This document shows positions 11,520 through 28,387 of a DNA stretch of 64,000 bases, one piece after another (the first letter of the stretch is position 1; every line of letters begins with the position of its first letter). The notes under the pieces were generated by a model. That model saw only the letters and a list, made by a program, of their open reading frames with translations, was not told where the DNA came from and did not search any database. Source of the DNA: Phormidium sp. FACHB-1136 (GTDB lineage: Bacteria > Cyanobacteriota > Cyanobacteriia > Phormidesmidales > Phormidesmidaceae); the NCBI RefSeq assembly GCF_014697375.1, contig NZ_JACJRS010000018.1, positions 1 to 64,000 on the forward strand, in the 5' to 3' direction. A program made the position numbers and the translations under genes.

Positions 11520-11545
11520 ATTGTCCAATATCGATATTGGACAAT
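11520..11545. promoter_or_regulatory. perfect 26-base palindrome
   Basis: The left half ATTGTCCAATATC is followed directly by its exact reverse complement. The ten bases ATTGTCCAAT also occur as a direct repeat just upstream (11504-11513). It lies between two convergent genes (GldG-like on plus, the 75-residue protein on minus), so it may be a bidirectional terminator, a recombination or protein-binding site, or a repeat. No T-run follows on either strand, which argues against a standard terminator. Confidence 0.5.
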
Positions 11546-11569
11546 TCGGATTGGGTAGAATCTCGATCC

Positions 11570-11797: not shown

Positions 11798-12135
11798 CGT
11801 CTTTTCTCCTAGGAGAGTCGCTTTTATTACTCTACCCACTGGCGCATGACCATCGCGCTCGATGACTCCAGCCTTAGGGGAGGCTATCCGCCCAATCCGC
11901 CCATTCGTCACCGACTTAAAACGTAGCCGTTGTAACAGGATTGGCTGTCGGAACAGGCCATGGATAGTGGATTGTTCCACCTGCTGAGGTCAAATTTCCC
12001 TGACAAACGACAGCGAACGTCTTTGTTTGTTAACCAGGGATCAAGGGTTGGATCGATAGGGTTGCCGATCAGCGGAACACTGGGGTTAGTGCCCTATCCG
12101 ACCCCACAATGGCCCTAACTCCCTGATTCCAACGC
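11798..12135. other. intergenic region, nothing recognised
   Basis: The 338 bases between the 75-residue protein and holB hold the ribosome-binding site of the former near 11800 and no other gene, repeat or strong hairpin that I can see. Confidence 0.4.
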
Positions 12136-13113: not shown

Positions 13114-13769
13114 TGCGCCAAATCGTCATGAACGATGGTGTTGATCTGTGCCGCCACCGCATCGGCAGGCTGTGCCCCGTCAATGGTAGCCCGTCGCTCT
13201 GGAAATTGCTGGGCTAGGGTCTCAAAGCCCCGTTGCACCCGTTGGTGAAAGGCCAGTTCCGCCTGCTCCATGCGATCTTGAGAACCCCGCCGCTGTGCCC
13301 TGGCCAGCCCCTGCTCCACCCTCAGCTTCAGCCAAATCGTTAAATCCGGCACCAGCCCCGCCGTCGCCCCTTGGTTGAGGTCTCGAATTAGTCCCAAATC
13401 TAAGCCCCGACCATAGCCCTGGTAGGCCACGGTGGAATCGGTAAACCGATCACACAGTACCCAACTTCCCCTATCCAGGGCTGGCAAGATGATTTCTTCG
13501 ATGTGCTGAGCCCGGTCGGCGGCATAGAGCAACAGTTCCGCCCGTGGCGCAATCACCACATCATGGTGACTGTCCAGCAACAGCCGCCGCAACCCTAGCC
13601 CTAGGTTGGTGCCCCCCGGTTCGCGGGTGATGAGCAATTCGGGGATGATCCCCTGAGCTTGCAGGGCTTGAAAAGAAGCACTCTGGGCCAAGTTTTCCCG
13701 CAGCCGCTGGATCTGGGTGGACTTTCCACAGCCCTCCACCCCCTCAAACACAATCAATTTACCCCGCAT
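13086..13769 (-). CDS. tmk: thymidylate kinase
   Basis: A 227-residue dTMP kinase making dTDP. It shows the P-loop GKLIVFEGVEGCGKSTQIQR, the DR(F/Y) motif WVLCDRFTDSTVAYQGYGRG and the LID region around RVEQGLARAQRRGSQDRMEQ. The ATG at 13769 is preferred over a GTG three codons upstream because AGGTGG lies seven bases before it. It is followed by the overlapping holB gene. A 175-base gap separates it from pxcA upstream, so the two may be transcribed separately. Confidence 0.94.
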   Translation of the reverse strand: MRGKLIVFEGVEGCGKSTQIQRLRENLAQSASFQALQAQGIIPELLITREPGGTNLGLGLRRLLLDSHHDVVIAPRAELLLYAADRAQHIEEIILPALDRGSWVLCDRFTDSTVAYQGYGRGLDLGLIRDLNQGATAGLVPDLTIWLKLRVEQGLARAQRRGSQDRMEQAELAFHQRVQRGFETLAQQFPERRATIDGAQPADAVAAQINTIVHDDLAQWYKPFLAT

Positions 13770-13944
13770 CGTCACCACCTAACCGAAACCAAGAACATCC
13801 TGAGATTAGCCTACTTTTCCAATGTAGAGAATGGGAGAATCCCACTTTCGTAAAGTCATCGTCTACCCTACGGAAAGCAAGCTAGATTTCTCAATCCCTT
13901 CTCCAAAAAATAAGGAATAAGAGTCAGACACAAAGTCTCTTTTC

Positions 13945-15297
13945 CTACTCATTCATGTTTTTATAGGTGGCCACCGCCGAGGGCGAAATACGGTTGAGAT
14001 AGCGGAAAATCCAGTACTTAAACACCGTATCGAGAATCACCGGGAAGGTGGCGATAAACAGAAAGATAAATTCCCGATTCGCTGGAAAGCCCAAATGGCG
14101 AGATAGCCCTTCTAGTAGGACTTCCCATCCGTGGGGGGAGTGGAATCCTACAAAAATATCGGTAAACAAAATAATGATGAATGCTTTGGCACTGTCGCTG
14201 AGACCGTAGACGATTTCGTCCATAAAAGACTTCAGGTTGGCTACGTCCTGTTTGCGAGTGATCAACAGGAGGGCAAAGGCTCCCGCTGCGACCAGATCGG
14301 CAAAGATATTTTTAATAGCATCAGCACTGCGTTGGCGATATTCTTCCTCAATTTTTGTGGCCTTTTCCCGCACCTGTCGTTCGATATTCAGCTCCGATAA
14401 AGGGGGAGCCTTGCCAATCAGTACCTCAAATCGCAGCCGCTCCTCAAACTGTTGAAGTTCGTGGAGCGCCTCTTCCTCCATTTCCACATTCAGAAACACA
14501 TCGGCCTGCCGATCCTGGCGGAAGTGATCCACCACTGGCCCCACCAGAAAGGTTTTGGTGAACTGCTGGGTGAGTAGGGGCACAATCACCAGCAGTAGCA
14601 GAAAGCGAATGGCGGCGGTAGTTCTGGCCTTGGAGGTACGAAACTCTTGCACCACTTCCTCTTCGGCGTTGGGGTCGAGATCCTGACGAATCCGATCCAC
14701 CGTGCGCAGGATAGACCGAGGCAGCACGTTGACCCGATCCGAAAGACCTTCCCGACTGTCGCTGGGGGAGTCGATGGATCCGTTGGCTTGCCCCCGCGAT
14801 TGGTCGGCCTTAGCCCGCAACACTTGCGTAGACTGGGCCGAGGCAAGGCTACCATTGGCCCCCTCGGTGAGGGTAATCACGCGCTCTGGGGGAGTCTCCA
14901 GGGCGGCATAGCGGGCCAGCACCTCATCAATCAGCCGCAGTTTCCGAAACAGCACGGCCTGCCGATCCACCACATTCACCGCCAGTTCGTCGGCTTCGGG
15001 GGTTGATAAGTCCACTTCCATAATCCGGGCATCAGACACCCGGATCACCGTGCGACTGGTGCGAAACTCGGCCATGCGCACCTTAATCAGATTGAGGTAT
15101 TTCTTGAGTTCGGCCTGAAAATAGTCCATGGCGCTGTCGCCATAGCTGCCGTAACGCGCGGAGATGGGGTTGCCCCCAAAGTACTCCCGCTCAATGGCCT
15201 CAATCATCTGTGCCGCCTCGTAAGCCTGGTTAAGGGCTCGCTCAGGGGTGCGGAAAAACCACTGCTGGGCATTGCGAAAAAAGCCTGGAGTCTGCAT
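13945..15297 (-). CDS. pxcA: proton extrusion protein PxcA (CemA family)
   Basis: A 450-residue homologue of the chloroplast envelope protein CemA. In cyanobacteria PxcA supports light-induced proton extrusion and so inorganic carbon uptake and pH balance. The long N-terminal soluble half (about residues 1-225) contains PRSILRTVDRIRQDLDPNAE just before the conserved core. The C-terminal half has about four membrane helices, including AIRFLLLLVIVPLLTQQF, DLVAAGAFALLLITRKQ, AFIIILFTDIFVGFHSPHGW and EFIFLFIATFPVILDTVFKY, ending in WIFRYLNRISPSAVATYKNM, a family signature. It is found upstream of tmk-holB on the same strand. Confidence 0.94.
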   Translation of the reverse strand: MQTPGFFRNAQQWFFRTPERALNQAYEAAQMIEAIEREYFGGNPISARYGSYGDSAMDYFQAELKKYLNLIKVRMAEFRTSRTVIRVSDARIMEVDLSTPEADELAVNVVDRQAVLFRKLRLIDEVLARYAALETPPERVITLTEGANGSLASAQSTQVLRAKADQSRGQANGSIDSPSDSREGLSDRVNVLPRSILRTVDRIRQDLDPNAEEEVVQEFRTSKARTTAAIRFLLLLVIVPLLTQQFTKTFLVGPVVDHFRQDRQADVFLNVEMEEEALHELQQFEERLRFEVLIGKAPPLSELNIERQVREKATKIEEEYRQRSADAIKNIFADLVAAGAFALLLITRKQDVANLKSFMDEIVYGLSDSAKAFIIILFTDIFVGFHSPHGWEVLLEGLSRHLGFPANREFIFLFIATFPVILDTVFKYWIFRYLNRISPSAVATYKNMNE

Positions 15298-15467
15298 CAG
15301 CGGGCACAGGGGAAAGGATCGCGGTCTGGCTCTAAACCACAGGATAATACATCACTTCCCAGTGGCTCTAGAAGCGGGGATGGATCCCTCCTTCTAGGGC
15401 TTGTCAGTCCGCCCGCCTTTAACCGATCCTAGGAGGAACACTGCATCGATCCGGGAGGCCGCTGACC

Positions 15468-16025
15468 ATGTCCCAAGCTACCCCTGAAAACGGCTGGGTC
15501 AACACCACCGAAGGCCACAACCCAGCGGTGATCGCCAGGGCACGGCAAATTCTGGCGGGGACGATCTACGGCACCCTTGCCACCAGCCGCCCCGATGGCC
15601 TCCCTTGGGCCTCCCCAATCTTCTTCGGCTACGATGCCGCCTGGAACCTCTATTGGTCGTCAACCCTGGTGGCCCAGCATTCCCAGAACCTCTATGCTAA
15701 CCAGGGTCGTGCCGCCATCGCCATCTACAGCACCGACCGATCCGAGGGCCAAGGGCAGGGGCTTTACCTCTCAGGCACCGTTGCCGAGGTGGAGACCGCC
15801 GCCGTCGAAACGGTGATACCCTTACTTCTGCAACGATCTGCATCAGGACAACGCCGTACCGCCGCCGATTACCTCCCCCCCTCGCCCCGCCGTCTCTACC
15901 GCTTTCAGCCCCAGACCGTCTGGATCACCGGAGACCGCATCGCCCTCAGCGACACTATTCTGATCGACACCAAAATTCAGCTCGATTTGTCCAGTCTGAT
16001 CGCCACCCCCGACTCTGGCTCCTAA
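15468..16025 (+). CDS. pyridoxamine 5'-phosphate oxidase-fold protein
   Basis: A 185-residue protein with the split-barrel FMN-binding fold. ARQILAGTIYGTLATSRPDG and LPWASPIFFGYDAAWNLYWS followed by TLVAQHSQNLYANQGRAAIA are the first strands and phosphate-binding region. The C-terminus LYRFQPQTVWITGDRIALSD is typical of the small PPOX-like proteins. It is not the true PdxH, which is encoded at 39036. It probably binds FMN or a related cofactor; its substrate is unknown. The ATG has GGGAGG nine bases upstream. Confidence 0.85.
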   Translation: MSQATPENGWVNTTEGHNPAVIARARQILAGTIYGTLATSRPDGLPWASPIFFGYDAAWNLYWSSTLVAQHSQNLYANQGRAAIAIYSTDRSEGQGQGLYLSGTVAEVETAAVETVIPLLLQRSASGQRRTAADYLPPSPRRLYRFQPQTVWITGDRIALSDTILIDTKIQLDLSSLIATPDSGS

Positions 16026-16147
16026 CGGGAAATTCCGATGGCAGGGGCTTCATCCCGTTGCCTGTACCGCACCTAGCTGCAAGCTGCGCTATCGTCATCA
16101 ATCCCGTAGAGGACGTTTGAAACACAATTTGCTAGCAATGACAGGCG

Positions 16148-18064
16148 CTATCCTCGGCTGGCCACAGAATCGCGCTGGCTGAGGATGGCCTGGTGGGCCT
16201 TTTCCCAGTGTTGGGCGGTGATGCGGATTTGGCTGGGGTCGGTCATCGCCTGGGCGCGGTATTCGCGGACGGCCTCTAGGGCGGCTTGGTTGCTCAGCAG
16301 GGCCAGGTCTGCGCCGTTCCATCCGTCGGTGAGGATGGCCCAGTGGGGGAGGTCTACCTCATCTAGGGGGCGGTTCTGGTTGTGGACTTCCAGAATCGCC
16401 AAGCGTCCAGCGGCATCGGGCAGGCTAATTTCAAGCTGGAGGTCAATGCGTCCGGCCCGGAGGATGGCAGGGTCGAGGGCGTTGGGGCGGTTGGTGGCCC
16501 CAATCATCAGCACGTTGCGGCAGTCTTGCAGGCCGTCCAGTTCCGTCAGCAGTTGGCCCACCACGCGATCACTAACGCCGGAATCGCCCATGTATTGGCC
16601 ACGGGCGGGAACGAGGGTGTCAATTTCGTCGATGAACACGACGCAGGGGGCGGCTTGACGGGCCTTGGCAAAGAGTTCCCGTACGGCTTGTTCGGCGGCC
16701 CCTACCCAGCGACTCAGCAGTTCTGGGCCATTGACGGCGATGAAGTTAGCCCTGGCTTGGGCGGCCACGGCCTTGGCCAAGAGGGTTTTGCCCGTTCCCG
16801 GTGGCCCCCACAGCAGTAGCCCTCGCGGAGCCTTGGCCCCCGTTTGTTCGTAGAGTTCGGGATAGAGCAGCGCCCCTTCCACCGATTCTTGCAGGGTTTG
16901 CTTCACCGCTTCCAGTCCGCCAATATCGTCCCAGGCAATGGCCGGAGACTCCACCTCCACCGACCGCAGCACCGAGGGCTTGATGTCCTTAAGGGCCTGG
17001 GCAAAGTCCTCCGGCAGCAGGGTCATGGTATCGGGCATGGGGGCATTGAGGTTAGGCACCTGGCGACGCAGGGCAAGGTAGGCCGCTTTTTGACACAGCG
17101 CTTTGAGATCGGCCCCCACCAGCCCCACCGCTTGGTCGGCAATGGCGGCGAGATCCACCCCATCCAAGGGCATCTCACGGGTTTGAATCCGCAGAATTTC
17201 CAAACGACCCTGACGGTCGGGCACTCGGAACTGTACCTCGCGGTCAAAGCGTCCGGGGCGGCGCAGGGCGGGGTCGAGGTGGTCGGGCCGATTGGTGGCC
17301 GCCAGCACTAGCACCCCCTGGGTTTGGGCAAAGCCGTCCATCAGTCCCAGTAACGTGGCCACCAGGCGCTTTTCCACCTCCCCTTCCACCTTGCTGCGGT
17401 CGGGGGCAAGGCTGTCGATTTCGTCGATAAAGATCAAACAGGGAGCGGCCTTTTTCGCCTTTTCAAAGATGCTCCGTAGACGCTGCTCGGCCTCGCCATA
17501 GTATTTGCCCATCACCTCCGGCCCCACAATGGCGATGTAGTTCACCCCCAAATCCTCAGCGAGGGATCGGGCGGTGAGGGTTTTTCCAGTGCCGGGGGGG
17601 CCAACCATCAGCACGCCACGGGTGGGTTCTAGGCCCAGTTTGGCCAGCACATCGGGCCGCTTGAGGGGAATTTCCACCAGTTCCCGCAGTTCTTGCAGGG
17701 TATCGGCCAAACCACCGACGGATTGCAGAGTGGGGCGTTCTGGTGACCGATTCGGGGTTGGCGAATCGGCAGGTGGGGGAGCAGAAGACGGTGCAGAAGC
17801 CGTAGCCGCTGGATCCGCTGGGGCTGGGTTGCGACTAGGCGGCGGCGTGATAATCACGTCATCCACAGGGTCGGAACTGACACCCGCCCCCGAACGCCCC
17901 ATGCGACTGACGCCGATATCAGGAATGTTGCCCTGGCGGGGAATGCTGCTGAGGCCACGGGCATTGATCTGCACATTGGTCTTCAGTTCACCACTTTCGG
18001 CCTTTTCCTCTAGGGTTTTGGCCAGTTCAAGCAGTTGTTCAAAGCCTTTAAAGAGGTCACTCAT
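16148..18064 (-). CDS. tandem AAA ATPase, CDC48/p97-like
   Basis: A 638-residue protein with two complete AAA modules. Module 1 has Walker A GPPGTGKT at residues 155-162, Walker B CLIFIDEIDSLAPDRSKVEG and the second region of homology VLAATNRPDHLDPALRRPGR. Module 2 has LLWGPPGTGKTLLAKAVAAQ near residue 430, CVVFIDEIDTLVPARGQYMG and MIGATNRPNALDPAILRAGR. Instead of the CDC48 N domain it begins with an amphipathic helix (SDLFKGFEQLLELAKTLEEK), followed by a proline-rich linker of about 60 residues. It is probably a hexameric protein unfoldase. The start at 18064 is chosen because upstream residues look like leader noise. No adaptor or protease gene is adjacent. Confidence 0.9.
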   Translation of the reverse strand: MSDLFKGFEQLLELAKTLEEKAESGELKTNVQINARGLSSIPRQGNIPDIGVSRMGRSGAGVSSDPVDDVIITPPPSRNPAPADPAATASAPSSAPPPADSPTPNRSPERPTLQSVGGLADTLQELRELVEIPLKRPDVLAKLGLEPTRGVLMVGPPGTGKTLTARSLAEDLGVNYIAIVGPEVMGKYYGEAEQRLRSIFEKAKKAAPCLIFIDEIDSLAPDRSKVEGEVEKRLVATLLGLMDGFAQTQGVLVLAATNRPDHLDPALRRPGRFDREVQFRVPDRQGRLEILRIQTREMPLDGVDLAAIADQAVGLVGADLKALCQKAAYLALRRQVPNLNAPMPDTMTLLPEDFAQALKDIKPSVLRSVEVESPAIAWDDIGGLEAVKQTLQESVEGALLYPELYEQTGAKAPRGLLLWGPPGTGKTLLAKAVAAQARANFIAVNGPELLSRWVGAAEQAVRELFAKARQAAPCVVFIDEIDTLVPARGQYMGDSGVSDRVVGQLLTELDGLQDCRNVLMIGATNRPNALDPAILRAGRIDLQLEISLPDAAGRLAILEVHNQNRPLDEVDLPHWAILTDGWNGADLALLSNQAALEAVREYRAQAMTDPSQIRITAQHWEKAHQAILSQRDSVASRG

Positions 18065-18193
18065 AGGGCATTCCCAGGCAAACGGCAGCAATGGCGGGCC
18101 AACAGCCCCCACAACTTAGGGTTCACTGCCCCCGCCCCCTAACCTCCAGGGTAGCCACAAAACTTTAAATTGCGCGAAATTGCGCGGTTCTCG

Positions 18194-19651
18194 TCAACCG
18201 TCCTCGTCTTGTTGGTTCTGCTCTTTCTCCTGCTGTCGTTGGCGGAGAGCTTGGGCCTTGAGGGCGAGGTCTTGGAAAAAGTCGGTTTCCACAATTTCCT
18301 TCACTTGGCGCTGGCGTTTGGATTCATCAATCTCGATCTGAAACGCCTGGATTTGCTGCTTCAGCCGTTGCTCTCGTTGGTAGACCTGATGGGCCATTTG
18401 GCGGAAGATACGGGCAAGGCGACCGATTTCATCCTGGCGGGTAGTGATGGCGGCGAGGGGATCGAGGTCTTGATCGAGGTCAAAGGTTTCATCCTCGATT
18501 TTAGTAGCGGCTTTGGCGATGTTTAGGACGGGTTGGGCAATGAGGCGGTTAGCCAGCCCAATGGCGATGGCGGCGGTGCAGATCGTGAAAAAGACAATCA
18601 CGACAAGTAACAACTGCTGGTTGCGGCGAATGCCCGCCATGTAGTCTGCTTCGGGAATAATCGTGCCGACGGTCCAGTCGAGGTAGTCGAGGCGGGTGAG
18701 GGAGATGTAGTAGTGGTCGCCGCTCTGGCTGTCGGTGTAGCGCAGCAGGTCGTCGAGGGCGGGGGAAGCTTGGATGGCCCGACTGGCCCGTTGCAGTAGG
18801 GGATCCTGCACGGCGTCAAACCGCTGAAGTTGGGGCGATCCGTCCACCGAGACCTGGGTGGGCATGGCCTCCTGCACCACGGTGGAGGCAATCAGATCGC
18901 GCTGATCGTTAATGATGAAGGCGGCACCGGGGCGGTCTTGTTGGAGCGATTCTAGGTAGTCCGAGAGCTGGGTTAGCTCAATGCCAATGCCAATCACGCC
19001 CATAATCTCGCCATCCCTAGACAGGGTGACCGTGACATCCATGCCGGGGACTTGGTTCGAGCGATACACATAGACGGTTTCGGCGGGTTGCCCTGGGGTC
19101 TTTATCGCCGCTTGGTACCATGGCCGTTCTGGGGCGTAGAAGGGGGGATCCATGCTTTTGGTCTCGCGGCGGATTTCCTGGGGTAGAGTGCCGCTGTTGT
19201 CGAAGGTGTAGATGGTGGTAGTGGTGGTTTGGCGGTCGGCATCCCAGATGCGGTGGTGGAAATAAAGGCGTTGGTCGGGGCCACGCTGAGCACCCAGGAA
19301 GTCGCCCCCCGCATCACCGTACTGTACCCAGGTGAAGTTAGGATAGGCCCGCAACACCCCAAGCATAAAGTCACGGGTGGCGTCTAGGTCGGTCAGGTCG
19401 ATGAGATCTTGGCCAAAGCTGCTGCTGAGCACCTGCTGGGCAGACTGGGCATTAGTAAACAGGCGCTCGACTTCCTTGGAGGTGCCCACCATCATTTCTT
19501 GGTTCACCTGGGCCACGATGGTATCGATGTTGCGGCGGGCGGTGATGGCCCAGGGCAGATAAACAATGGCGGCGGTGGCGCTAACGGTGAGAAAGACGGA
19601 TCCAACTAGGGTGGCTTTTAGACCAAGGGGACGGCGCAATCTGGAGGTCAT
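18194..19651 (-). CDS. Cache-HAMP transmembrane receptor without output domain
   Basis: A 485-residue membrane receptor. Helix 1 is near residues 13-33 (LVGSVFLTVSATAAIVYLPW). A double-Cache ligand domain follows, with FTWVQYGDAGGDFLGAQRGP, PPFYAPERPWYQAAIK and VTVTLSRDGEIMGVIGIGIE near residues 208-227. Helix 2 is LLLVVIVFFTICTAAIAIGL, then a HAMP segment with NIAKAATKIEDETFDLDQDL and ITTRQDEIGRLARIFRQMA. The C-terminus is a coiled coil of about 70 residues with no kinase, cyclase or methyl-accepting domain. It is the last gene of the racemase/binding-protein/symporter unit, 63 bases after the symporter, so amino acids are a reasonable guess for the ligand. Signal output must go through a separate partner. 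Confidence 0.85.
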   Translation of the reverse strand: MTSRLRRPLGLKATLVGSVFLTVSATAAIVYLPWAITARRNIDTIVAQVNQEMMVGTSKEVERLFTNAQSAQQVLSSSFGQDLIDLTDLDATRDFMLGVLRAYPNFTWVQYGDAGGDFLGAQRGPDQRLYFHHRIWDADRQTTTTTIYTFDNSGTLPQEIRRETKSMDPPFYAPERPWYQAAIKTPGQPAETVYVYRSNQVPGMDVTVTLSRDGEIMGVIGIGIELTQLSDYLESLQQDRPGAAFIINDQRDLIASTVVQEAMPTQVSVDGSPQLQRFDAVQDPLLQRASRAIQASPALDDLLRYTDSQSGDHYYISLTRLDYLDWTVGTIIPEADYMAGIRRNQQLLLVVIVFFTICTAAIAIGLANRLIAQPVLNIAKAATKIEDETFDLDQDLDPLAAITTRQDEIGRLARIFRQMAHQVYQREQRLKQQIQAFQIEIDESKRQRQVKEIVETDFFQDLALKAQALRQRQQEKEQNQQDEDG

Positions 19652-19714
19652 GATCGAGGGAGTAGATGTCCGGCGATAGAGAGGCGGGCGAGGGCTGAAT
19701 CTGGGTTTCTGGGT

Positions 19715-21040
19715 CTATTGGGGGGCGATGATGGGGTCGGCCTGAGGTTGGACGATGGTTTGGGGGGCGGCAATGGCAGCGGTGGTCGCCATCCCCGTAT
19801 GGACAATTCCCAAGGTACGCAGGGGATCCATCAGGGGGTCGATGGCAATGAAGAGCACCAGCACCGCTTCGAGGGGAAGACGCAGGGGATCCAGCACCAG
19901 ACCCAGCATAGTCAGGGTCAAAATTCCGGTGACGCCGGAGGTGGCCATGCCCGCCAAAATCGCCCCAACGAGAATCGTCAGCAGGGTGCTGAGGCCCATC
20001 TCCTTTTGGTAGAGCTGGACAACAAACAAGGCCGCTGCCCCGAAGTATGCCACAGAACCAAACCGACACAGGGTAATGGTGAGGGGGGTCACTAAATCCG
20101 TGGTTTGGCGGTCAAAGCCCAGATCCTCGCTGAGGCTGCTGATGGCAGCGGGCAGACAGGCCAAACTGCTGGAGGTGGCCAGGGCCAGAATAGTGGGATC
20201 CTTGATGGCAGTTAGCACCTGACCAAAGGATCGGCCAGATCGCTGCCAGATGACCAGGGTGCCCAAAAGATAGATCACCAGGGAAATCCCCAGCATCACC
20301 ACCACAAAGTCCACCATCGACACCAACACCTCAACCCCAATTTCCGAGAGTTGGTAGGCCAGCAGACTAAAGAGACCAATGGGCAGTAGATAGGTCAGCC
20401 AGTGGATCACCTGGTTAAAGCTGCGATAAACACTGTCCAGAATATCAAACAGGGCGTTGGTGCTTTGGGTACGAATCAGGCCGAGGGAAACGCCAAAGAT
20501 AATCGCAAACAGCAAAACCTGGAGGGTCTGGCCTTCGCTGAGGGCCGAGAAAATGTTCTCCGGCACAATGTCCACCACTAATTCGCCGATGGCGTTGCCC
20601 TCTTCCACCTCAAGGGGGCCATTGAGGGCAATTTCTAGGTCAATGCCCGACTGATTAATCAACACCCCTAGGCTTTCTAGGGTGCTGGCTGTGAGGTTGC
20701 GGCCTGGGCCAGCCACCGCCGCAATGGAGGTAGCAATGCCACTGACAATCAGCAGCGCCAGGGGAAAAATCAGCACAATCCGCCGGACATACCGTCGGGC
20801 ATCGTGGCTGCGCATCAGCCGACCAATACTGTTAGAAATAGCCGACAGCAAAATTGGCAGCACACACATCTTCAGCAAACCCAGATAGAGGCTACCGAGG
20901 GGCTGGAGTTGTTGGGCCACCCCAGGGTGAACGCTGCCAATGTAGGCTCCTAGCAAAACGCTCACGACAATAGCCCAAGGGCTACGCAGCCACTTGATAG
21001 AGATCCGAGGAAACGACTTAGAGTTCAGCAAGGTGGTCAT
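19715..21040 (-). CDS. dicarboxylate/amino acid:cation symporter (DAACS family)
   Basis: A 441-residue secondary transporter of the glutamate/aspartate:Na+/H+ symporter family. Conserved parts are the N-terminal helix WAIVVSVLLGAYIGSVHPG, the segment VDIVPENIFSALSEGQTLQV with LLFAIIFGVSLGL, the serine-rich hairpin ILALATSSSLACLPAAISSL, and the later GMATSGVTGILTLTMLGLVL and AIDPLMDPLRTLGIVHTGMA hairpins. The usual substrate-site NMDGT appears altered (TPLTITLCRFGSVAYFGAAA), so its specificity may differ from classic GltP. It lies 62 bases downstream of a periplasmic binding protein, which is unusual because this family normally works without one. Confidence 0.92.
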   Translation of the reverse strand: MTTLLNSKSFPRISIKWLRSPWAIVVSVLLGAYIGSVHPGVAQQLQPLGSLYLGLLKMCVLPILLSAISNSIGRLMRSHDARRYVRRIVLIFPLALLIVSGIATSIAAVAGPGRNLTASTLESLGVLINQSGIDLEIALNGPLEVEEGNAIGELVVDIVPENIFSALSEGQTLQVLLFAIIFGVSLGLIRTQSTNALFDILDSVYRSFNQVIHWLTYLLPIGLFSLLAYQLSEIGVEVLVSMVDFVVVMLGISLVIYLLGTLVIWQRSGRSFGQVLTAIKDPTILALATSSSLACLPAAISSLSEDLGFDRQTTDLVTPLTITLCRFGSVAYFGAAALFVVQLYQKEMGLSTLLTILVGAILAGMATSGVTGILTLTMLGLVLDPLRLPLEAVLVLFIAIDPLMDPLRTLGIVHTGMATTAAIAAPQTIVQPQADPIIAPQ

Positions 21041-21102
21041 GGGGTTGCAACAACGAGGTCAGAAATCGTGGCCAATCAGCGGCGGCGGGCTCGGATCAGG
21101 CG

Positions 21103-22152
21103 TTAGGAGCCCTCTGGTTCCGACCAGTAGTCGGCGTAGTCGTCTAGCACCGTGTCCACGGTGTAGGTTTGCCCTTGGGTTTCAAGGTAAAGATCCACCC
21201 AGGACAGCAGATGGGTACTATCCCAGGGCAGTACCATGGCCAAGTGGTCTTGGGCATCGGTGAGGGCCACGGTTTGCAGGTTCAAGGAGGCATCGGGCTG
21301 CACCCGCATCACCTTTTTGACTTCGAGTTCATCGCGATAGGCGGCGAGGAGGTCTCCCCGATTCACCGCCTGCACAGCCTCTTCCCAGGTGGGCATTTCG
21401 ACCACGGTAGCCTGGGGAAATTTTTGGCGCAAAAAGCCCACGTAGGAGGAATTTTGAATCACACCCACTGGCCCCGCCAGGGCACGAATGGCCTCGGTTG
21501 TGCGGCGGTTTTGGCTCTGTTGGGCTAGTTGCAGGCGGTTGACCAGCAGCCCTTGGCGCATACTCAGGTAGGGCCGCGAAAACCTCACCCGCTGACCCCG
21601 GTTCAGGGTGCGGCTAATTTTTGAAATGGCCAGATCCGCCTCCAGCCGATAGACCTGATCCACCACTTGATCAAAGGTTTGGGCCGAGCGGTTTAGCTCC
21701 AGATCCACCTCCAACTGCTGGGCCAGAGCCTTGGCCAGTCCAATGTCGAGGCCCCCCAGACTCCCATCGGCCAAGGTCATAAAGAAGGGGGGATTATCCA
21801 CCCCCAGCACCGCGACCACTAGCTTGCCCCGGTCGCGAATCCGTTGAACATCGGGGGGCGGATTGTTGCAATCCAGGTCGGTTATCGGGATAGGGCGAGA
21901 CTGCCCCGTGGTTCGGGCGGTCGAACCAGCGGTTGAACTGGCGACGGATCGGCCAGGGGTGGCGCGGTCGATGGCTTGGCACTGACTATCCGTAGTGGCG
22001 GCGGTGGTAGAGCGCAGGGCGGCCACCCCATGGGATCCATTGCCCCCGGCCCAGGCTGGGGTAGGCACCAGGGTGAGAAGGATCGTCAGCCATAGCCCCA
22101 GAATTAGGCCAAGGCTTAGGGCGCGGGGGCGGTAAGGCGCAAACTTCAGCAC
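21103..22152 (-). CDS. periplasmic amino-acid-binding protein (SBP family 3)
   Basis: A 349-residue exported solute-binding protein. A signal peptide ends at about residue 35 (LILGLWLTILLTLVPTPAWA). A low-complexity linker of about 65 residues with two cysteines precedes the binding domain, which starts at RIRDRGKLVVAVLGVDNPPF. GSLGGLDIGLAKALAQQLEV, ADLAISKISRTLNRGQRVRF and SRPYLSMRQGLLVN follow the family pattern, with an arginine (ISRTLNR region) and a late aspartate (AAYRDELEVKKVM) placed as in amino-acid-binding members. It lacks an adjacent ABC permease or ATPase. It is encoded 12 bases after the racemase and 62 before the symporter, which suggests it hands ligand to the symporter or senses it. 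Confidence 0.9.
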   Translation of the reverse strand: MLKFAPYRPRALSLGLILGLWLTILLTLVPTPAWAGGNGSHGVAALRSTTAATTDSQCQAIDRATPGRSVASSTAGSTARTTGQSRPIPITDLDCNNPPPDVQRIRDRGKLVVAVLGVDNPPFFMTLADGSLGGLDIGLAKALAQQLEVDLELNRSAQTFDQVVDQVYRLEADLAISKISRTLNRGQRVRFSRPYLSMRQGLLVNRLQLAQQSQNRRTTEAIRALAGPVGVIQNSSYVGFLRQKFPQATVVEMPTWEEAVQAVNRGDLLAAYRDELEVKKVMRVQPDASLNLQTVALTDAQDHLAMVLPWDSTHLLSWVDLYLETQGQTYTVDTVLDDYADYWSEPEGS

Positions 22153-22164
22153 AACAAAATACCT

Positions 22165-22953
22165 CTAGGCTTCCAGCAAAGATGAAACGGTGCGAACACC
22201 AAAGGCCAAATCCAGGGTGGTGTCCGCCACCGCTTCGAGGGGGTCAACCCAGGGCAGGGGCAGAGCATCCAGGGAGCTTAGCCCCACCGAAAGTTCGGTG
22301 CAGCCCGCCACCACCACCTCCGCCCCTTGATTCGCAAGCCACTGGACGGCCTCGACCAAGGTCGCGAGGGCTTGGCTAGACAACCGGGTTCCCGTGGCTT
22401 TGATGCCCCAATCTGGGTGATAAATCGTTTGCATCACCTGTTGTTGAATGGGAGATCCGAGGGCGGGGGAAATTTCTTGGAGCCGCGCTGCCCTCAAACT
22501 AGGGCTAAACAGTCGATGTTGGAGAGTGCCATCGGTCGTCAGCAGCCCAATGCGGTGCACAGTCGGGTAGCGCTGGCGGATGAATTGGCTGGTACAGTTC
22601 ATCAAAGAAATCCAGGGAATATCGATCTGATCCTGAACGCGGTCATAGAAGGCATGGGCCGTATGGCAGGGCACCACCAGAAAATTGGCCCCCCCCTGAG
22701 CTAAAATCCGCCCATAGCTCACCAGCCCAGGTACACAGTCGGGAGCCTTGCCCTGAAGGCTGCGAGTCCGGTCAGGGATATTGCTCGCATTCACAAGGAT
22801 CCAGGTGGGGTGATCCTGATCGCACCGGGCACCCCGCTTGACACTTTGGTTAATCAGACGCTGCTCAAACTGAATATGGGCCAGAGGGCCAAGGCCACCT
22901 AAAATCCCCGGAATAGACTGCTGCCGACGACCAAGGGGAGCAAGGGAAGCCAT
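22165..22953 (-). CDS. aspartate/glutamate racemase family protein
   Basis: A 262-residue cofactor-independent amino-acid racemase. The N-terminal GILGGLGPLAHIQFEQRLI is the family start (GG-x-GP). The two catalytic cysteines are visible in FLVVPCHTAHAFYDRVQ (proton abstraction side) and VVVAGCTELSVGLSSLDALP. SIPGILGG and YPTVHRIGLLTTDGTLQHRL also fit. It would interconvert L- and D-aspartate or a related acidic amino acid in the cytosol. It is the first gene of a four-gene unit with a binding protein, a symporter and a Cache receptor, implying that the transported substrate can be a D- or L-acidic amino acid. Confidence 0.9.
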   Translation of the reverse strand: MASLAPLGRRQQSIPGILGGLGPLAHIQFEQRLINQSVKRGARCDQDHPTWILVNASNIPDRTRSLQGKAPDCVPGLVSYGRILAQGGANFLVVPCHTAHAFYDRVQDQIDIPWISLMNCTSQFIRQRYPTVHRIGLLTTDGTLQHRLFSPSLRAARLQEISPALGSPIQQQVMQTIYHPDWGIKATGTRLSSQALATLVEAVQWLANQGAEVVVAGCTELSVGLSSLDALPLPWVDPLEAVADTTLDLAFGVRTVSSLLEA

Positions 22954-23428
22954 CGCGGTTACCTACAGTTATCACCATGGAAGCAGGCACAATCAGGACG
23001 GTCAGCATCGATACCAAATCCCCGCAAACCGCAGAGCCAATGGCCGTTTGACTGATTTAACCTATTCAAGATTCAGTCCTAGAAACCCTATTCCGGACAC
23101 TTTTGGGGACAAACCCCAAAACCGCCACGCCGAGATTGGTTGCCATGCCGCCTATCGAAGATGCCACGGCTATTGCCAAGCATGATACCTTTCGCCTAGT
23201 GCAGTGTCTAGGCGAGAGAGAACCCATGTAGATCTGAGTATCCAAGGCATCCACAAATGACGGTGATCTGGAATTTGTTTTAATCAGTCTATGAGGGCCA
23301 TGGGTTTGGCATCTTCCTCAGCATGGATGATGCGTTTTTTTGCTTGCTTGGCCTTCCCCTCAGCCAGATCCTTCTCCTAGAGATTCCTCCGACCGGCGTA
23401 CCGTGATGGGGGTGGGGTGAGCGGGGAT
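22954..23428. other. intergenic region, no gene supported
   Basis: The 475 bases upstream of the racemase unit should carry its promoter. A small hairpin TTTTGGGGACAAACCCCAAAA lies at 23101-23121 without a T-run after it on either strand. A 62-codon minus-strand frame (23066-23254) has no start context and odd composition, so it is not annotated. Confidence 0.45.
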
Positions 23429-23686
23429 TTAAGGTCGGGGGCGAGAGGATCGGCTATGTTGCCCGTGGATGCTGACACAGTAGGGCACAACGTAGGTTAA
23501 GGCGGCAGAAAACCAGCGCTGACGGGTCATTTGTCCCTGCCAGAGAGCTACGCCATGGTTAATCGTAAACAGGAGGGTGCCAATCACCAGCGCCACCCGC
23601 AACGCCGTCGGGGCATAGTGGGGATCCCGCAGGCTTTGCCAGTAGGTTTGGGAGGGTTGGGGCTGGGGTAGCATGATCTGGGACAT
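23429..23686 (-). CDS. nrtS: nitrate/nitrite transporter NrtS
   Basis: An 85-residue membrane protein with the compact NrtS pattern: YWQSLRDPHYAPTALRVALV, VIGTLLFTINHGVALWQGQM and TRQRWFSAALTYVVPYCVSI, with HGQHSRSSRP at the tail. Two membrane helices are visible. NrtS proteins take up nitrate and nitrite in some cyanobacteria as homo- or heteromers of such small subunits. The start is the ATG at 23686 or 23674; the longer minus-strand frame overlaps the neighbouring protease gene and is not coding. It is divergent from that gene, with 14 bases between start codons. No other nitrogen gene is adjacent. Confidence 0.85.
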   Translation of the reverse strand: MSQIMLPQPQPSQTYWQSLRDPHYAPTALRVALVIGTLLFTINHGVALWQGQMTRQRWFSAALTYVVPYCVSIHGQHSRSSRPRP

Positions 23687-23700
23687 GGGAGGATTGAGCG

Positions 23701-24282
23701 ATGACACTTCATATTTCTCAACTTCAGTATCAACGAATACAGGAGTTTTTGGAAACCGCCTATCCCCAGGAGGGCTGTGGGGTGCTAGTGGGGAAACGGG
23801 TGTTTGATTCAGTTGAGGCACAGGCTCCGACTGAACGGCCATCTCAATCTCTGCCCCAGGACGCCTATCGTGAAGTGGCGCAGGTGATCCCGGTAGCAAA
23901 TGCCTGGGAACCAGGGCTGTTGGATGAGGAGGGGGGTGAAGAAACCGCCCATGCTAGGAACGATCTCGACCGTGACGACAGGCCCAATCAGACGGTAACC
24001 CACGGAACCCACGACCGCTACTGGATTCACCCCGCCGACCTGTTGCGAATTCAGCAAGAAGCCCGTGGGCAGGGGCTAGACATCATCGGTATAGTCCATT
24101 CCCACCCCGACCATCCAGCGCTGCCCTCGGACTGTGATCGGCGACTGGCTTGGCCTGGGTATTCCTATGTCATCGCGTCAGTCTGCCGAGGTAGCGTGGT
24201 GGATGTGCAAAGCTGGCGACTCAACGACGCCCAGCAATTTGAGCCGGAGAGCATCGGCCTTATCCTGGGCCAAAACCGCTGA
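23701..24282 (+). CDS. M67 family metallopeptidase (JAMM/Mov34)
   Basis: A 193-residue zinc isopeptidase-like protein. The JAMM residues are visible: the glutamate in ETAYPQEGCGVLVGKR, HSHPDHPALPSDCD with both histidines and the aspartate, and the serine in the same motif. Between strands it carries an acidic, poorly conserved loop of about 50 residues (about 60-100) that is longer than in most small bacterial JAMM proteins. Bacterial members often process ubiquitin-like sulfur carriers such as CysO or ThiS; no such carrier is adjacent here. It starts 14 bases from the divergent nrtS start, so the two share a promoter region. Confidence 0.9.
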   Translation: MTLHISQLQYQRIQEFLETAYPQEGCGVLVGKRVFDSVEAQAPTERPSQSLPQDAYREVAQVIPVANAWEPGLLDEEGGEETAHARNDLDRDDRPNQTVTHGTHDRYWIHPADLLRIQQEARGQGLDIIGIVHSHPDHPALPSDCDRRLAWPGYSYVIASVCRGSVVDVQSWRLNDAQQFEPESIGLILGQNR

Positions 24283-24338
24283 GAATGGCTAGCCCACGGT
24301 GGCCCACCCATCACCAAGTCAACGCCCTAGCGACGTCG

Positions 24339-24818
24339 CTAGGAATGCAAGCTAGCCCGGTTGGGGGCACGTTTAGCGATAACCCGGTGAAAGCCGTTCC
24401 GTAGAGCCACTAACCCTTGCCGCCAGAGAGGTTTGCGCTTTGGCAGGGTAACGACAATCGCCCCCTGGGCATAGGCGACCTGCATAGCCCCATCCTGTAC
24501 GGGAGCGGGTAGAGGAACACTGTGCTGAAAGTGGTTGAGGCTGATGCCATAGCTGAGATCACGACGATAGCCCGATTGGCGTTGACCAAAGAAGGTGATC
24601 CCTGTGGTGCTGGCCCGCACCTGTACGGCCTGGGGATCGATACCGGGCAGAAAAGCCGTGACGATCACCGCATCCTCGGTGGCTTGAATTTCCACGGAGG
24701 GCACCTGTAGTCGCCCAGAGGGAGCCCTATCCAACGGCATGAGGGCGGCGGTAATGGCATCGAGCTGGGCTTGGGCGGCGGTTAAATCCCAAACGGATGA
24801 CCAGATGGTGCTTGGCAT
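24339..24818 (-). CDS. Hsp20/alpha-crystallin small heat shock protein
   Basis: A 159-residue chaperone. The alpha-crystallin domain runs from VPSVEIQATEDAVIVTAFLP to AQGAIVVTLPK, including GIDPQAVQVRAS and SYGISLNHFQHSVPLPAPV. The classic A-x-x-x-n-GVL-tail motif appears as QVAYAQGAIVVTLPK. The N-terminal arm has SSVWDLTAAQAQLDA. The ATG at 24818 is well supported by AGGAGGGG seven bases upstream. It protects unfolding proteins under stress. I saw no CIRCE (HrcA) inverted repeat upstream. It is divergent from dprA. Confidence 0.9.
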   Translation of the reverse strand: MPSTIWSSVWDLTAAQAQLDAITAALMPLDRAPSGRLQVPSVEIQATEDAVIVTAFLPGIDPQAVQVRASTTGITFFGQRQSGYRRDLSYGISLNHFQHSVPLPAPVQDGAMQVAYAQGAIVVTLPKRKPLWRQGLVALRNGFHRVIAKRAPNRASLHS

Positions 24819-25042
24819 ATTCCCCTCCTGGTAACGGTTGCCTGTGGTCTGGCGGGCGATGGTGGCGGTGGACAATGGTGACAGGTGATTCGGCGGCAGC
24901 CGAATCCTCGACGTGGCTGACTTGGTTTACTTCCATCATGGCGATGGACGTCGGCATCTGGTAGGGAGGAAAGCCCAAGGTCATGGGGTGTATAACCGTC
25001 CTGGAGTGGGCACAATAACGGCACACCATTGGGGATGAAGCA

Positions 25043-26215
25043 TTGACCACAGAACGTGCCTATTGGGTGGCCTGGTCGCAGGCCAAGGGGTTAGGATCGG
25101 TGTTGTTGAAGCGGCTGCACAGCCACTTTGGTAGCTTGGCGACGGCGTGGCAGGCGGAGGAATCGGCCCTGCTGGAGGTGGAGGGGATTGGGCTGTTGCT
25201 GGCGGCGCAACTTTCGGAGCATCGCCAACAGGTCAACCCCGATGACTGTCTGGCCCATCACGAAGAACAGGGGGCCAACTTTTGGACGCCTGCCGACCCA
25301 GACTATCCCGCCCTGCTCTACGAAATTACCGACCCGCCGCCCCTGCTTTACTACAAGGGCCGCACCGAACTAGCCCAGGCGGTGCAAACCATGCCCTCGG
25401 TCGCCATTGTGGGCACCCGCGAACCCTCAGACTATGGCCAAAGCTGGACAAGACGCATTGTGCAACAACTGGCTAGTCATGATGTGATTGTGGTGTCGGG
25501 CCTCGCTAGCGGCATAGATCGCTACGCCCACAGCCAAGCCCTCGATAGCCAGGGGCTGACCATTGCCGTCCTGGGCACCGGGGTAGATCGCAGCTATCCC
25601 TGGAATAACCGCGCCCTGCAAGACCGCATGGCCCAAGAAGGGCTGCTGCTGAGCGAACACCCCAACGACACCCCGCCCGACCGCACCCACTTTCCTCGCC
25701 GCAACCGCATCATCGCCGGACTCAGCCGCGCCACCGTGGTCACCGAAGCCCCCCTGCGATCCGGTGCCCTGATCACTGCCCGCCTCGCCAACGACTATGG
25801 CCGTGAGGTCTACGCCCTGCCCGGTTCCCTCGACAACCCCGCCAGCCTAGGCTGTCTAGACCTGATCCGCCAAGGGGCACAGATGATCTGGGACGACACC
25901 ACCTTAATCCGAGACCTGGGCCAAATTCCCCAACTCGACGCTCCACTACTCCTGGCCCAACCCTCCACCGCCCCGATGGCATCGGGATCCTCAACGGCCC
26001 AACCCTCACCCCTTCCCACCCCCGCCCCAGCTGACCTCTCCCCCGATCTTGCCACCGTCCTCGCCGCCGTCACCACGGATCCCGTTACCCTGGACTATCT
26101 CGTCCAGTCCCTCAATCGGCCCACGGGGGACATCCTCAGCAGCTTGCTACACCTAGAACTAGAGGGCTTAGTCACCCAAACGCCCCCCGGTAGCCAAACC
26201 TATCAGCGGTGTTGA
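25043..26215 (+). CDS. dprA: DNA-processing protein DprA
   Basis: A 390-residue DprA that loads RecA on incoming single-stranded DNA during natural transformation. It has an N-terminal helix-hairpin region (LLEVEGIGLLLAAQLSEHRQ), the Rossmann-like core with VAIVGTREPSDYGQSWTRRI, VVSGLASGIDRYAHSQAL, LGTGVDRSYPWNN, FPRRNRIIAGLSRATVVTEA and GALITARLANDYGREVYALP, a proline/alanine linker, and a C-terminal winged-helix (LDYLVQSLNRPTGDILSSLL). Translation appears to begin at TTG 25043, since no in-frame ATG fits. Together with the nuclease NurA this is the main DNA-uptake/repair gene here; no com genes are adjacent. Confidence 0.92.
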   Translation: MTTERAYWVAWSQAKGLGSVLLKRLHSHFGSLATAWQAEESALLEVEGIGLLLAAQLSEHRQQVNPDDCLAHHEEQGANFWTPADPDYPALLYEITDPPPLLYYKGRTELAQAVQTMPSVAIVGTREPSDYGQSWTRRIVQQLASHDVIVVSGLASGIDRYAHSQALDSQGLTIAVLGTGVDRSYPWNNRALQDRMAQEGLLLSEHPNDTPPDRTHFPRRNRIIAGLSRATVVTEAPLRSGALITARLANDYGREVYALPGSLDNPASLGCLDLIRQGAQMIWDDTTLIRDLGQIPQLDAPLLLAQPSTAPMASGSSTAQPSPLPTPAPADLSPDLATVLAAVTTDPVTLDYLVQSLNRPTGDILSSLLHLELEGLVTQTPPGSQTYQRC

Positions 26216-26329
26216 GGCATTCCCTTGGGAACGTAGCGCGGATCGATGAGGCGTCGCTTAGGGGTAATCTAGGGGAAGTCTGGTCTGACCACGACTCAGC
26301 TTTGTCGCCTGTTTCACCCATCTGCCGTC

Positions 26330-27169
26330 ATGATCTTTCCCTCCGACCGTGATTTGCAAACCTGGCTAGATGTGGCCACCGAAGCGGCCCAATCCGCTGG
26401 GGCGGTACTTCAGCACTATTGGGGCAATCTCCAGGATGTGCGGGAGAAGGGGCGTTCTGGGGATTTAGTCACCGAGGCGGATCAGGCCTCGGAGGCGGCG
26501 GTGATGGCGGTGATGGAACGTCACCTGCCCAGCAACCACGGCATTTTGGCAGAGGAATCTGGGGCGTCGGGCCAAGACAACAGCGCGTTTCTCTGGGCCA
26601 TCGACCCCCTAGACGGCACCACCAACTACACCCACCAGTACCCCTTCTGCTCGGTCTCCATTGGGTTGCTGTTTGAGGGCGAGCCGATTTTGGGGGTGGT
26701 GTATAACCCGATTTTGAACGAACTCTTCCAGGGGGCGAAGGGGCTGGGGGCCACCTTCAACCGTCAGCCCATGCAGGTTTCCACCACGGACAATTTGGCC
26801 CAAAGCCTTCTGGTGACGGGGTTTGCCTACGACCGCCGCGACACTGCCGACAATAACTATGCCGAGTTTTGCCAGTTCACCCATCTCACCCAGGGGGTGC
26901 GTCGGGGTGGATCGGCGGCGGTGGATTTGGCCTACGTGGCCTGCGGTCGCCTAGATGGCTATTGGGAGCGGGGGCTCTCGCCCTGGGATATTACGGCGGG
27001 GATTACCCTGGTGCGAGAGGCGGGGGGGCAAGTGACGGCCTACGACCAAAGCCCTCTCATCGTCAACAGCGGGCGACTGTTGGCGACCAATGGCCACCTC
27101 CATAGCCCCATGGCGCAGGTGCTTCAGCAGGTAAACCCGCTGGCGTTTACGCCCCTTGCCCTGGACTAA
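26330..27169 (+). CDS. inositol monophosphatase family protein
   Basis: A 279-residue Mg-dependent phosphatase of the IMPase family. Metal ligands are in GILAEESG, AIDPLDGTTNYTHQYPFCSV (the DPLDGT motif) and GLSPWDITAGITLVREAGG (the WD motif). VVYNPILNELFQGAKGLGAT follows the metal site as in SuhB-type proteins. Cyanobacteria carry several paralogues with specificities from inositol phosphate to fructose bisphosphate or PAP; this one cannot be assigned from motifs. The start is the ATG at 26330, with no obvious ribosome-binding site. Confidence 0.9.
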   Translation: MIFPSDRDLQTWLDVATEAAQSAGAVLQHYWGNLQDVREKGRSGDLVTEADQASEAAVMAVMERHLPSNHGILAEESGASGQDNSAFLWAIDPLDGTTNYTHQYPFCSVSIGLLFEGEPILGVVYNPILNELFQGAKGLGATFNRQPMQVSTTDNLAQSLLVTGFAYDRRDTADNNYAEFCQFTHLTQGVRRGGSAAVDLAYVACGRLDGYWERGLSPWDITAGITLVREAGGQVTAYDQSPLIVNSGRLLATNGHLHSPMAQVLQQVNPLAFTPLALD

Positions 27170-27439
27170 GGCGAGGCGAGCCACTAAGGACGATTTTGGG
27201 TGGAATTCCGCGCCAAGATGACCGGATCGATACTGGCTTTCGTGGAATACTCTAAGTGATATTTCCGTCGTAGCGTTCGGGATAGCCCATCGACCTCGGC
27301 TGGCGAGGCGGCCACGTCCAAGGCTGGGTGTAGCAGCGGTTTTTAACGCTGTGCGTCAATATGGTATGGACGGCCATGGAAATGGAATACTCTGAAAAAG
27401 GCTTGGGCCTTCTCGTAAAGGCTAAAGGGGTAGGTGATC

Positions 27440-28387
27440 ATGAAACTCGACCATGGGCTCTTTAAATTTGATTTTGAGGATCACCACGCGGTGCTAGGGA
27501 TTCCGATTACCGCCGATGCGCGGGCGGTGCGGAAGCGCTACCTGGCCATTGCCCGCAAGCTCCACCCCGATAGTCTGTCGGGTCTCTCCGAGGACGAAGC
27601 CCAGCAGGCCAACGAGTTGCTCTCGAAGTGGGTGAACCCCGCCTACGAATCCCTCAGCCAGGAAAAGCTATCTACTGAGCACCAGATTATGTTGAAGCTG
27701 AAGGGGCAAGGGCTGAAGCGATCCCCCGCCCCGCCCGAAATCAGCAGCGAAGCGGCCAAAACGTTGCTAAAAGCCCCCCAGGTGGACTTGGCCTACCAAC
27801 AGGCCGTGAAATCCTTGGCGGAGCAGCAGTATGAACAGTTGGCCCAGGTGTTAGAGGTAGTGGGCCAGATCAGTGAGCTCAATATGGTCTACCTCTATCG
27901 CACCAGCGATGGCCCTGCGGCCTCCAGTGCCCCTGCCGCCCCGCCGCCCCCCAGTAGTGCCGCCCCGCCGCCCGCCCCCGGTAAGCCTGCCCCTGCCCCC
28001 CCCCCCCGCCGCACCCAGGCCACCATCCTCGAAAGCTACATCAATCGCGCCCAGGAGTTTGAGCTGAATCGTGATTACAGTCGGGCCGTGCTGGAAATGC
28101 GGGAGGCACTGAAAACCTACCCCAACAGCGCCCGCTGTCATAGCTATCTGGCCAACCTTTACCTAAAGGCGGGGCAGGCCACGATGGCCAAGGTACATGC
28201 AAAACGGGCGCTAGATTTAAGCCCTGAGGATGAGATTGCCCAATCCATCCAGGCCAAGCTAGAGAAAAGTGCTCCCGGATCGACGGGAGGTTCTGCGGCC
28301 AAGGGCGGCAAGCCCCCCGCCAAGGGCAAGCCCGAAGACAAAGGGGGGGGATTTTTGGGTGGATTATTTGGAGGAAAGAAAAAGTAA
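27440..28387 (+). CDS. J-domain/TPR protein
   Basis: A 315-residue cytosolic co-chaperone-like protein. A J domain occupies residues 12-75 (AVLGIPITADARAVRKRYLA, then IARKLHPDSLSG with the HPD signature). A helical segment precedes a proline-alanine linker (about residues 155-190). After it come TPR repeats: RAQEFELNRDYSRAVLEMRE, ALKTYPNSARCHSYLANLYL and LKAGQATMAKVHAKRALDL. The C-terminus is a lysine/glycine-rich tail ending GLFGGKKK. The ATG at 27440 is preferred to GTG 27434. Its TAA overlaps the hisZ start codon (TAATG). It probably recruits a DnaK to a bound client. Confidence 0.85.
   Translation: MKLDHGLFKFDFEDHHAVLGIPITADARAVRKRYLAIARKLHPDSLSGLSEDEAQQANELLSKWVNPAYESLSQEKLSTEHQIMLKLKGQGLKRSPAPPEISSEAAKTLLKAPQVDLAYQQAVKSLAEQQYEQLAQVLEVVGQISELNMVYLYRTSDGPAASSAPAAPPPPSSAAPPPAPGKPAPAPPPRRTQATILESYINRAQEFELNRDYSRAVLEMREALKTYPNSARCHSYLANLYLKAGQATMAKVHAKRALDLSPEDEIAQSIQAKLEKSAPGSTGGSAAKGGKPPAKGKPEDKGGGFLGGLFGGKKK

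Follow-up and report, generated by a model that had tools for sequence, protein, structure and literature searches.

In a 64,000-nucleotide stretch of the Phormidium sp. FACHB-1136 genome (contig NZ_JACJRS010000018.1; hereafter the window), we find a conserved cassette in which a family-3 solute-binding protein (SBP) is encoded next to a membrane protein of the SDF (SLC1/DAACS) fold. The pair resembles a nutrient importer of a kind that appears undescribed, and from its sequence features we consider it reasonably likely that the cassette specifies an importer of SLC1 fold that depends on the SBP, takes up acidic amino acids, and is probably not driven by Na+, a racemase then consuming or trapping the substrate. 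Four open reading frames (ORFs) lie in a row on the minus strand: an Asp/Glu-type amino acid racemase independent of pyridoxal phosphate (22165..22953, 262 residues; PF01177, 106.6 bits, above the Pfam cut-off), the SBP (21103..22152, 349 residues, GTG start; PF00497, 59.5 bits, above the cut-off), the SDF protein (19715..21040, 441 residues; PF00375, 235.2 bits against a gathering score of 27.9), and a dCache_1-HAMP membrane receptor (18194..19651, 485 residues; 53.4 and 36.1 bits, respectively). The ORF coordinates confirm this run and its gaps of 12, 62, and 63 bases as given in the initial annotation of the DNA, and one transcript for the four genes is plausible.

With the window SDF as query, matches were obtained in 39 of 96 related genomes, including a protein of 90% identity in a genome of the same genus, and 40 stretches around such matches, distant ones included, were read. 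An alignment of 12 SBP-SDF relatives was also searched against 388 genomes of the same class, where the SDF branch is well separated (54 places at E ≤ 3.7e-127; next match 1.8e-55). All 54 places were read for their neighbors. In 47 the SBP gene immediately precedes the SDF gene on the same strand, the order racemase-SBP-SDF is found in 34, and the full order racemase-SBP-SDF-Cache in 18, seven of which belong to two families other than that of the window (f11 and f24). Among the 34, a further five are too short for a Cache gene, five have it on the opposite strand, and six have none downstream. Chance neighborhood can be rejected, as the adjacency recurs among relatives. The concern raised in the initial annotation, that the four genes might rarely be adjacent elsewhere, does not hold, and the racemase and sensor that it named as partners do recur near SBP-SDF pairs. 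The seven places with no adjoining upstream SBP comprise four genomes of one genus (g29), two SDF genes flanking a single SBP gene in one locus, and one contig end. One of the four g29 SDF genes has just 288 bases upstream of it; three g29 genomes have an unlinked SBP of the cassette type (301–304 bits), 14 kb from the SDF gene in one of them, and in the fourth genome, 83% complete, an SBP of this type was not found.

The two proteins also co-occur across genomes. An SBP alignment search of a class sample of the same size (388 genomes) returned 52 genomes at E ≤ 1e-30, and of the 49 genomes that have the SDF branch 47 also have this SBP type, compared with 5 of the 339 that lack the branch (Fisher p = 3e-52, uncorrected for kinship). 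Both SDF-bearing genomes lacking the SBP are incomplete (69 and 83%), and one has an SBP fragment at a contig end. The five genomes with the SBP only belong to one family (f2), and each has a more divergent SDF match (E of 1e-44 to 1e-54); in the three that were read, SBP and SDF adjoin. These divergent pairs from small genomes (L120, 5439-7703; L127, 5784-8062; L130, 1120-3513), with the motifs SRMG, ARLG, and GRTG, are likely long-branch members of the same kind. Among 25 genomes sampled from the genus of the window, both genes are present in 17 and neither in eight. The cassette is a conserved system.

The 87 distinct pairs with an upstream SBP have a median gap of 9 bases. The two genes overlap or abut in 28 pairs, with a spacing of exactly −4 in 12, and start-codon over-extension accounts for some of the longer overlaps. 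Over the 87 pairs, the correlation between SBP and SDF distances is 0.927, and none of 2000 permutations was as high (maximum 0.199), a result that shared species ancestry would also yield. In the three genomes with two pairs each (G006, G009, and G016), every SBP groups with the SBPs of its own SDF's clade. Adjacency, co-occurrence, and matched divergence thus all support the earlier pairing of a secondary-transporter protein with an SBP.

A wide contig scan gave 320 relatives, of which 79 loci were kept, from Methylobacter, Methylomonas, Magnetospirillum, Devosia, Paucimonas, Cohnella, Omnitrophota, Anaerolineaceae, and other metagenome-assembled genomes (MAGs), as well as from Nodosilinea and Arthrospira strains. 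In 73 of the 79 (23 of the 26 non-cyanobacterial loci), no more than 600 bases separate the SDF gene from an SBP gene, which is the upstream one in 72. The distribution is broad but patchy: the SDF branch occurs in 8 of 398 Pseudomonadota genomes at E ≤ 1e-100, one being the seed, and in Bacillota at three places in 2 of 299 genomes, both already rows of the query alignment. Paucimonas and another proteobacterium (L209 and L213) have the order Cache-SBP-SDF-racemase; in Gemmobacter aquarius, Cupriavidus sp. P-10, and Paraburkholderia phymatum STM815 (L258, L259, and L260), on replicons of 0.28 to 1.9 Mb, the order is SBP-SDF-racemase-second SDF. The deposited annotation of the Gemmobacter locus reads substrate-binding protein, cation:dicarboxylase symporter family transporter, amino acid racemase, and second symporter. 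Because the same partners recur in different gene orders, a functional link between them is indicated; where two SDFs share one racemase, they might form an in/out pair.

The window SDF is the single PF00375 gene product of its genome. Its AlphaFold2 model (mean predicted local distance difference test score, pLDDT, of 80.0) has as top Foldseek match 9bgz, the ancestral uncoupled aspartate transporter Anc-Int, followed by GltPh and relatives. In alignments, CRFGS (residues 325–329; 20054..20068, minus strand), at which the model retains the helix break, replaces N310-M311-D312-G313-T314 of GltPh, so that R326 takes the place of M311. In the transmembrane helix 8 segment (19793..19828, minus strand), GltPh N401 and D405 are changed to I412 and G416; D390, D394 (D405 in its own numbering), R397 (R408), and T398 are retained. 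The Na+-coupled signature given in PMC12668577 is S/T at 92–93, N310, M/S311, D/E312, and D/E405, for which the window protein has A and L at 92 and 93, C310, R311, F312, and G405. From the H+-coupled set of the same source (A/L/I/V/M/F at 92, L311, and N405), A92 agrees, but R311 and G405 do not. With these Na+ and H+ signature residues absent, the designation "DAACS symporter" in the Na+-coupled sense used in the initial annotation is not supported. D394 and R397, the substrate residues of acidic amino acid SDF transporters (PMC12668577), are both in place.

To set this protein among its relatives, 208 SDF ORFs (165 distinct) were reduced to 110 representatives at 85% identity. Sixty are SBP-linked, leaving out a second SDF of L220 linked only via an over-extended ORF. 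SDFs with D/N312, N401, and D/N405 were called canonical, a definition of our own set after the data were seen, and control sequences came from a phylum-wide PF00375 search, mostly of genomes outside the window's class. All 60 SBP-linked representatives match neither the Na+ nor the H+ signature; 22 of the 35 canonical SDFs without an SBP match the H+ set, the other 13 match neither set, and the Na+ set is matched by none of the 35. The SBP-linked proteins have D394 in 39 and R397 in 49 of 60. At position 311, where the GltPh and Anc-Int methionine contacts the substrate (PMC12668577), 53 of the 60 have arginine and seven proline, and R397 is absent from the Pro-311 rows displayed in the alignments. 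The arginine may act as a built-in guanidinium, by analogy with Arg262 of CaiT. One SBP-linked sublineage (L062-L065, L204, L210, and L218) has an NPPG motif and no Arg397, with no racemase seen; it probably has another substrate. Separately, a group of cyanobacterial SDFs without an SBP (L124, L125, L128, L129, L131, and L133-L138) carries a KRDG-type motif and Lys397, also outside the published ion signatures.

The SBP begins with a hydrophobic helix (residues 8–27), judged by eye to be a signal peptide, followed by a poorly predicted linker (residues ~35–90) and the SBP domain from about residue 97. Its AlphaFold2 model (mean pLDDT of 84.6) has the family-3 fold, with amino acid SBPs such as 4i62, also its best Protein Data Bank (PDB) match, as Foldseek neighbors. 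In keeping with the PF00497 match to the amino acid-binding family, the Arg and Asp ligands are conserved: R185 (codon 21598..21600) and D274 (codon 21331..21333; both minus strand) occur in every one of 31 aligned SBPs, and over 116 SBPs, duplicates included, each has a conservation of 1.00 (rounded). By homology, we take Arg185 to be the α-carboxylate ligand and Asp274 the α-amino ligand.

The racemase has two catalytic cysteines, in PCHTAH (C96) and GCTEL (C218), both aligning with those of PDB entry 1jfl, and it scores 139 bits against the amino acid racemase model TIGR00035 (cut-off 93). Its best NCBIfam model is that of the cysteate racemase CuyB (NF052483; PMC11382572), which it matches at 174 bits, below the cut-off of 190. 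The nine cyanobacterial racemases tested score below it (158–186), and all nine tested intact SBP-SDF-linked racemases from proteobacteria score above it (196–268); a tenth (L190) is apparently frame-disrupted and covers half of the model. Cysteate is the sulfonate analogue of aspartate. For this reason, and because the best model is below its cut-off, aspartate, glutamate, cysteate, and similar acids are all candidate substrates. The suggestion in the initial annotation that D-aspartate or D-glutamate is taken up from peptidoglycan is not supported, no direct evidence for it having been sought. Cysteate catabolism in the window's genome was considered and rejected on TIGR01275, tried for cysteate lyase, which scored just 20–21 bits where its cut-off is 289; no further enzyme of cysteate breakdown was looked for. 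Racemase genes were detected in the vicinity of 26 of the 60 SBP-linked SDFs, none of the 35 canonical SDFs, and none of 14 others, a comparison in which 16 of the 35 canonical loci have flanks of just 1.5 kb, lowering detection of racemase and Cache genes alike, and three have less than 700 bases upstream. In an alphaproteobacterial MAG (L189), a D-serine-dehydratase-like gene (11306-12475; PF01168 and PF14031) adjoins a locus with the SBP-SDF pair, a racemase, and a Cache-cyclase protein, which hints at D-amino acids.

The receptor of the window carries no output domain beyond HAMP. With our hidden Markov model (HMM), which probably undercounts, having missed at least one Pfam-detected Cache protein, downstream of the L186 pair, Cache proteins were detected in the neighborhood of 21 of the 60 SBP-linked SDFs, one of the 35 canonical SDFs, and one of the 14 others. 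Of ten Cache proteins tested for outputs, a class III cyclase is present in four, and a histidine kinase, a combination of kinase, receiver, and cyclase, and GGDEF-EAL in one each; the remaining three are output-less and in this resemble the window receptor. The amino acid motif of PctA includes R126, W128, Y129, and D173 (PMC10104139); in the window Cache domain RPWY is present, and the motif Asp was not matched in a weak alignment to PctA. A second HAMP-like receptor encoded in the genome ends in a tail similar to the conserved C-terminal tail of this one (50% identity over 64 residues), and the tail may serve transporter-linked receptors as a docking motif. This second receptor (L240, 601-1695) is also output-less and adjoins a membrane protein that by eye resembles a transporter of the major facilitator superfamily; neither has a Pfam match at 1e-5.

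We propose that SBP and SDF are dedicated partners that would act together as an elevator-type importer for aspartate, glutamate, or a closely related acid, cysteate being one example. The SBP would capture the periplasmic ligand through the invariant Arg185 and Asp274 and pass it to the SDF in its outward-facing state; there, the amino and side-chain acid groups of the ligand would be held by D405 and R408 (D394 and R397 of GltPh). Because the canonical cation site is dismantled and R326 stands where M311 of GltPh touches the substrate, transport is probably not Na+-driven; it could be facilitated, proceed by exchange, or use another driving ion. Inside the cell the racemase would invert the substrate, draining or trapping it, and could thereby keep the gradient directed inward; the Cache-HAMP receptor might sense the periplasmic ligand and tune the system. 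The racemase fits a proposal in PMC12668577, according to which an uncoupled SDF may work together with an enzyme that uses the amino acid and would thereby maintain its gradient. A bolder generalization, which we regard as possible rather than probable, is that the pairs represent an ancient and widespread SBP-dependent SLC1-fold class without ion coupling, taking directionality from SBP capture outside and stereo-inversion by the racemase inside, with arginine at the former cation site.

Several observations weigh against an uncoupled, SBP-fed importer. Since 13 of the 35 canonical controls also match neither signature, signature loss alone is no proof of non-coupling, and 14 altered-motif SDFs without an adjoining SBP, three of them at contig ends, match neither signature as well. 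N401, highly conserved in the SDF family, is isoleucine in the window protein. A racemase was not found near 34 of the 60 SBP-linked representatives by our HMMs, nor a Cache gene near 39, some of these loci being at contig ends. No ORF with both HMM matches, as in a natural SBP-SDF fusion, was seen among the locus ORFs checked; a 726-residue open frame in genome G939 was rejected as a fusion, being a start-codon over-extension in a frame other than that of the SBP. In a quick maximum-likelihood tree built without the motif columns and containing long branches, a single branch (Shimodaira-Hasegawa-like approximate likelihood ratio test, 100; length 2.41) sets off the canonical SDFs together with one row that is near-canonical. 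On this tree, SBP linkage and motif loss appear as one deep evolutionary event that offers no independent informative pair. The tree does not show them to be independently correlated traits, and the Fisher value for their association among the SDF representatives therefore does not count as independent evidence.

The 13 controls, presumed to be symporters, can also be read as favoring an ordinary symporter that works with an SBP and is coupled to H+, K+, or Na+ through residues other than the GltPh sites, and TRAP transporters do unite SBPs with ion gradients (PMC5812351). We consider this rather unlikely, as the window SDF has other residues in place of N310, D312, and D405 alike, and arginine occupies position 311 in most of the SBP-linked proteins. 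The dismantled ion site would also suit a transporter-derived receptor (transceptor), in which ligand-bound SBP alters the SDF and signals via the neighboring Cache protein instead of importing the ligand. The enrichment of Cache genes near SBP-linked over canonical SDFs, the cyclase, histidine kinase, and GGDEF-EAL outputs found elsewhere, and a possible precedent in the interaction of DctA with the sensor kinase DcuS (PMC5703999) point the same way. Such a role is nonetheless unlikely, given that most SBP-linked representatives have no Cache gene detected nearby (an undercount is likely), that the substrate residues are largely kept, and that a racemase inside the cell is best understood if the system performs uptake. 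PF00497-type SBPs normally serve ABC permeases, and three matches to the amino acid ABC permease model TIGR01726 lie elsewhere in the window's genome, so the SBP might feed an ABC importer there and merely be co-regulated with an independent SDF. When these three proteins, which recover each other, were used as blastp queries (E ≤ 1e-3), no such permease appeared among the ORFs of 177 SDF loci (duplicates included; 129 with the linked SBP type), bearing out the earlier remark that a permease is missing beside the SBP. This result, the near-complete SBP/SDF co-occurrence, unlinked cases included, the clade-by-clade match of paralogous pairs, and the scores of the other SBPs of the genome (at most 72 bits versus 388 for the cassette SBP) make the ABC explanation very improbable.

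The SBP-fed SDF importer that we favor has several relatives in function. TAXI-GltS (PMC12344293) likewise couples a secondary transporter protein genetically to an SBP, with a glutamate-type substrate and a membrane protein proposed to be of the elevator type, but it combines a TAXI-type SBP with the ESS-family Na+ symporter GltS, whereas here a PF00497 SBP stands with a PF00375 SDF lacking the Na+ signature; natural fusions are reported for TAXI-GltS, and none was seen here. TRAP and TTT systems (PMC5812351) also perform SBP-dependent secondary transport with an SBP and membrane proteins in one system, although built from other families (DctQM with DctP or TAXI, and TctAB with TctC). With GltPh, the EAATs, DctA, and GltP, the cassette SDF shares fold, family, and the D394 and R397 residues; it differs in its missing ion signatures, its SBP neighbor, and its separate deep branch. 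The uncoupled SDF Ext-Int also lacks full ion signatures, and many genes of the uncoupled clade adjoin amino acid enzymes (PMC12668577), as the racemase does here; in contrast, the Ext-Int clade derives from Firmicutes sequences, Anc-Int retains the NMD motif, and the main text of that paper does not contain the phrase "binding protein."

PMC12344293 counts TRAP, TT, and TAXI-GltS as SBP-dependent secondary transporters, only the first two having been known before, and our best reading of the sequences is that the cassette would be a further class beside TRAP, TTT, and TAXI-GltS. No SDF/DAACS member with an SBP of this kind was found among the matches listed from openly licensed literature, which is weak evidence of absence, and in that literature none was found joining D-aspartate, racemase, cyanobacteria, and transporters. 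A sodium:dicarboxylate symporter signature is listed among the domains of 100 prokaryotic glutamate-receptor-like sequences (PMC2950845), so a fused SBP-SDF protein may already have been observed. Glutamate uptake in Rhodobacter sphaeroides, formerly described as "binding-protein-dependent secondary" transport, has since been attributed to what is likely a TRAP system (PMC12632250). Further SBP-dependent classes would allow a test of the proposal that the elevator mechanism permits SBP use (PMC12344293), and the SBP-linked branch bears on the purpose of uncoupled SDF transporters, a question asked in PMC12668577. The fold has many solved structures, and the branch reaches named organisms such as Paraburkholderia phymatum STM815 and the Nodosilinea and Arthrospira strains.

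Promoter-like and terminator-like sites at the four-gene unit were within about 1 standard deviation of shuffled sequence, no RNA element reached gathering score in window positions 13000-28000, and a phage search with the SBP as query gave no match. On the same strand, starting 81 bases downstream of the Cache gene, lies a gene for a CDC48-like, two-module AAA+ ATPase (16148-18112) that scores 644 bits to TIGR01243, under that model's cut-off; near the loci of relatives its counterparts were matches of 11% coverage only, at three loci. Upstream of the unit, on the opposite strand, 23701-24282 encodes a JAB/MPN-domain protein (PF14464, 81 bits).

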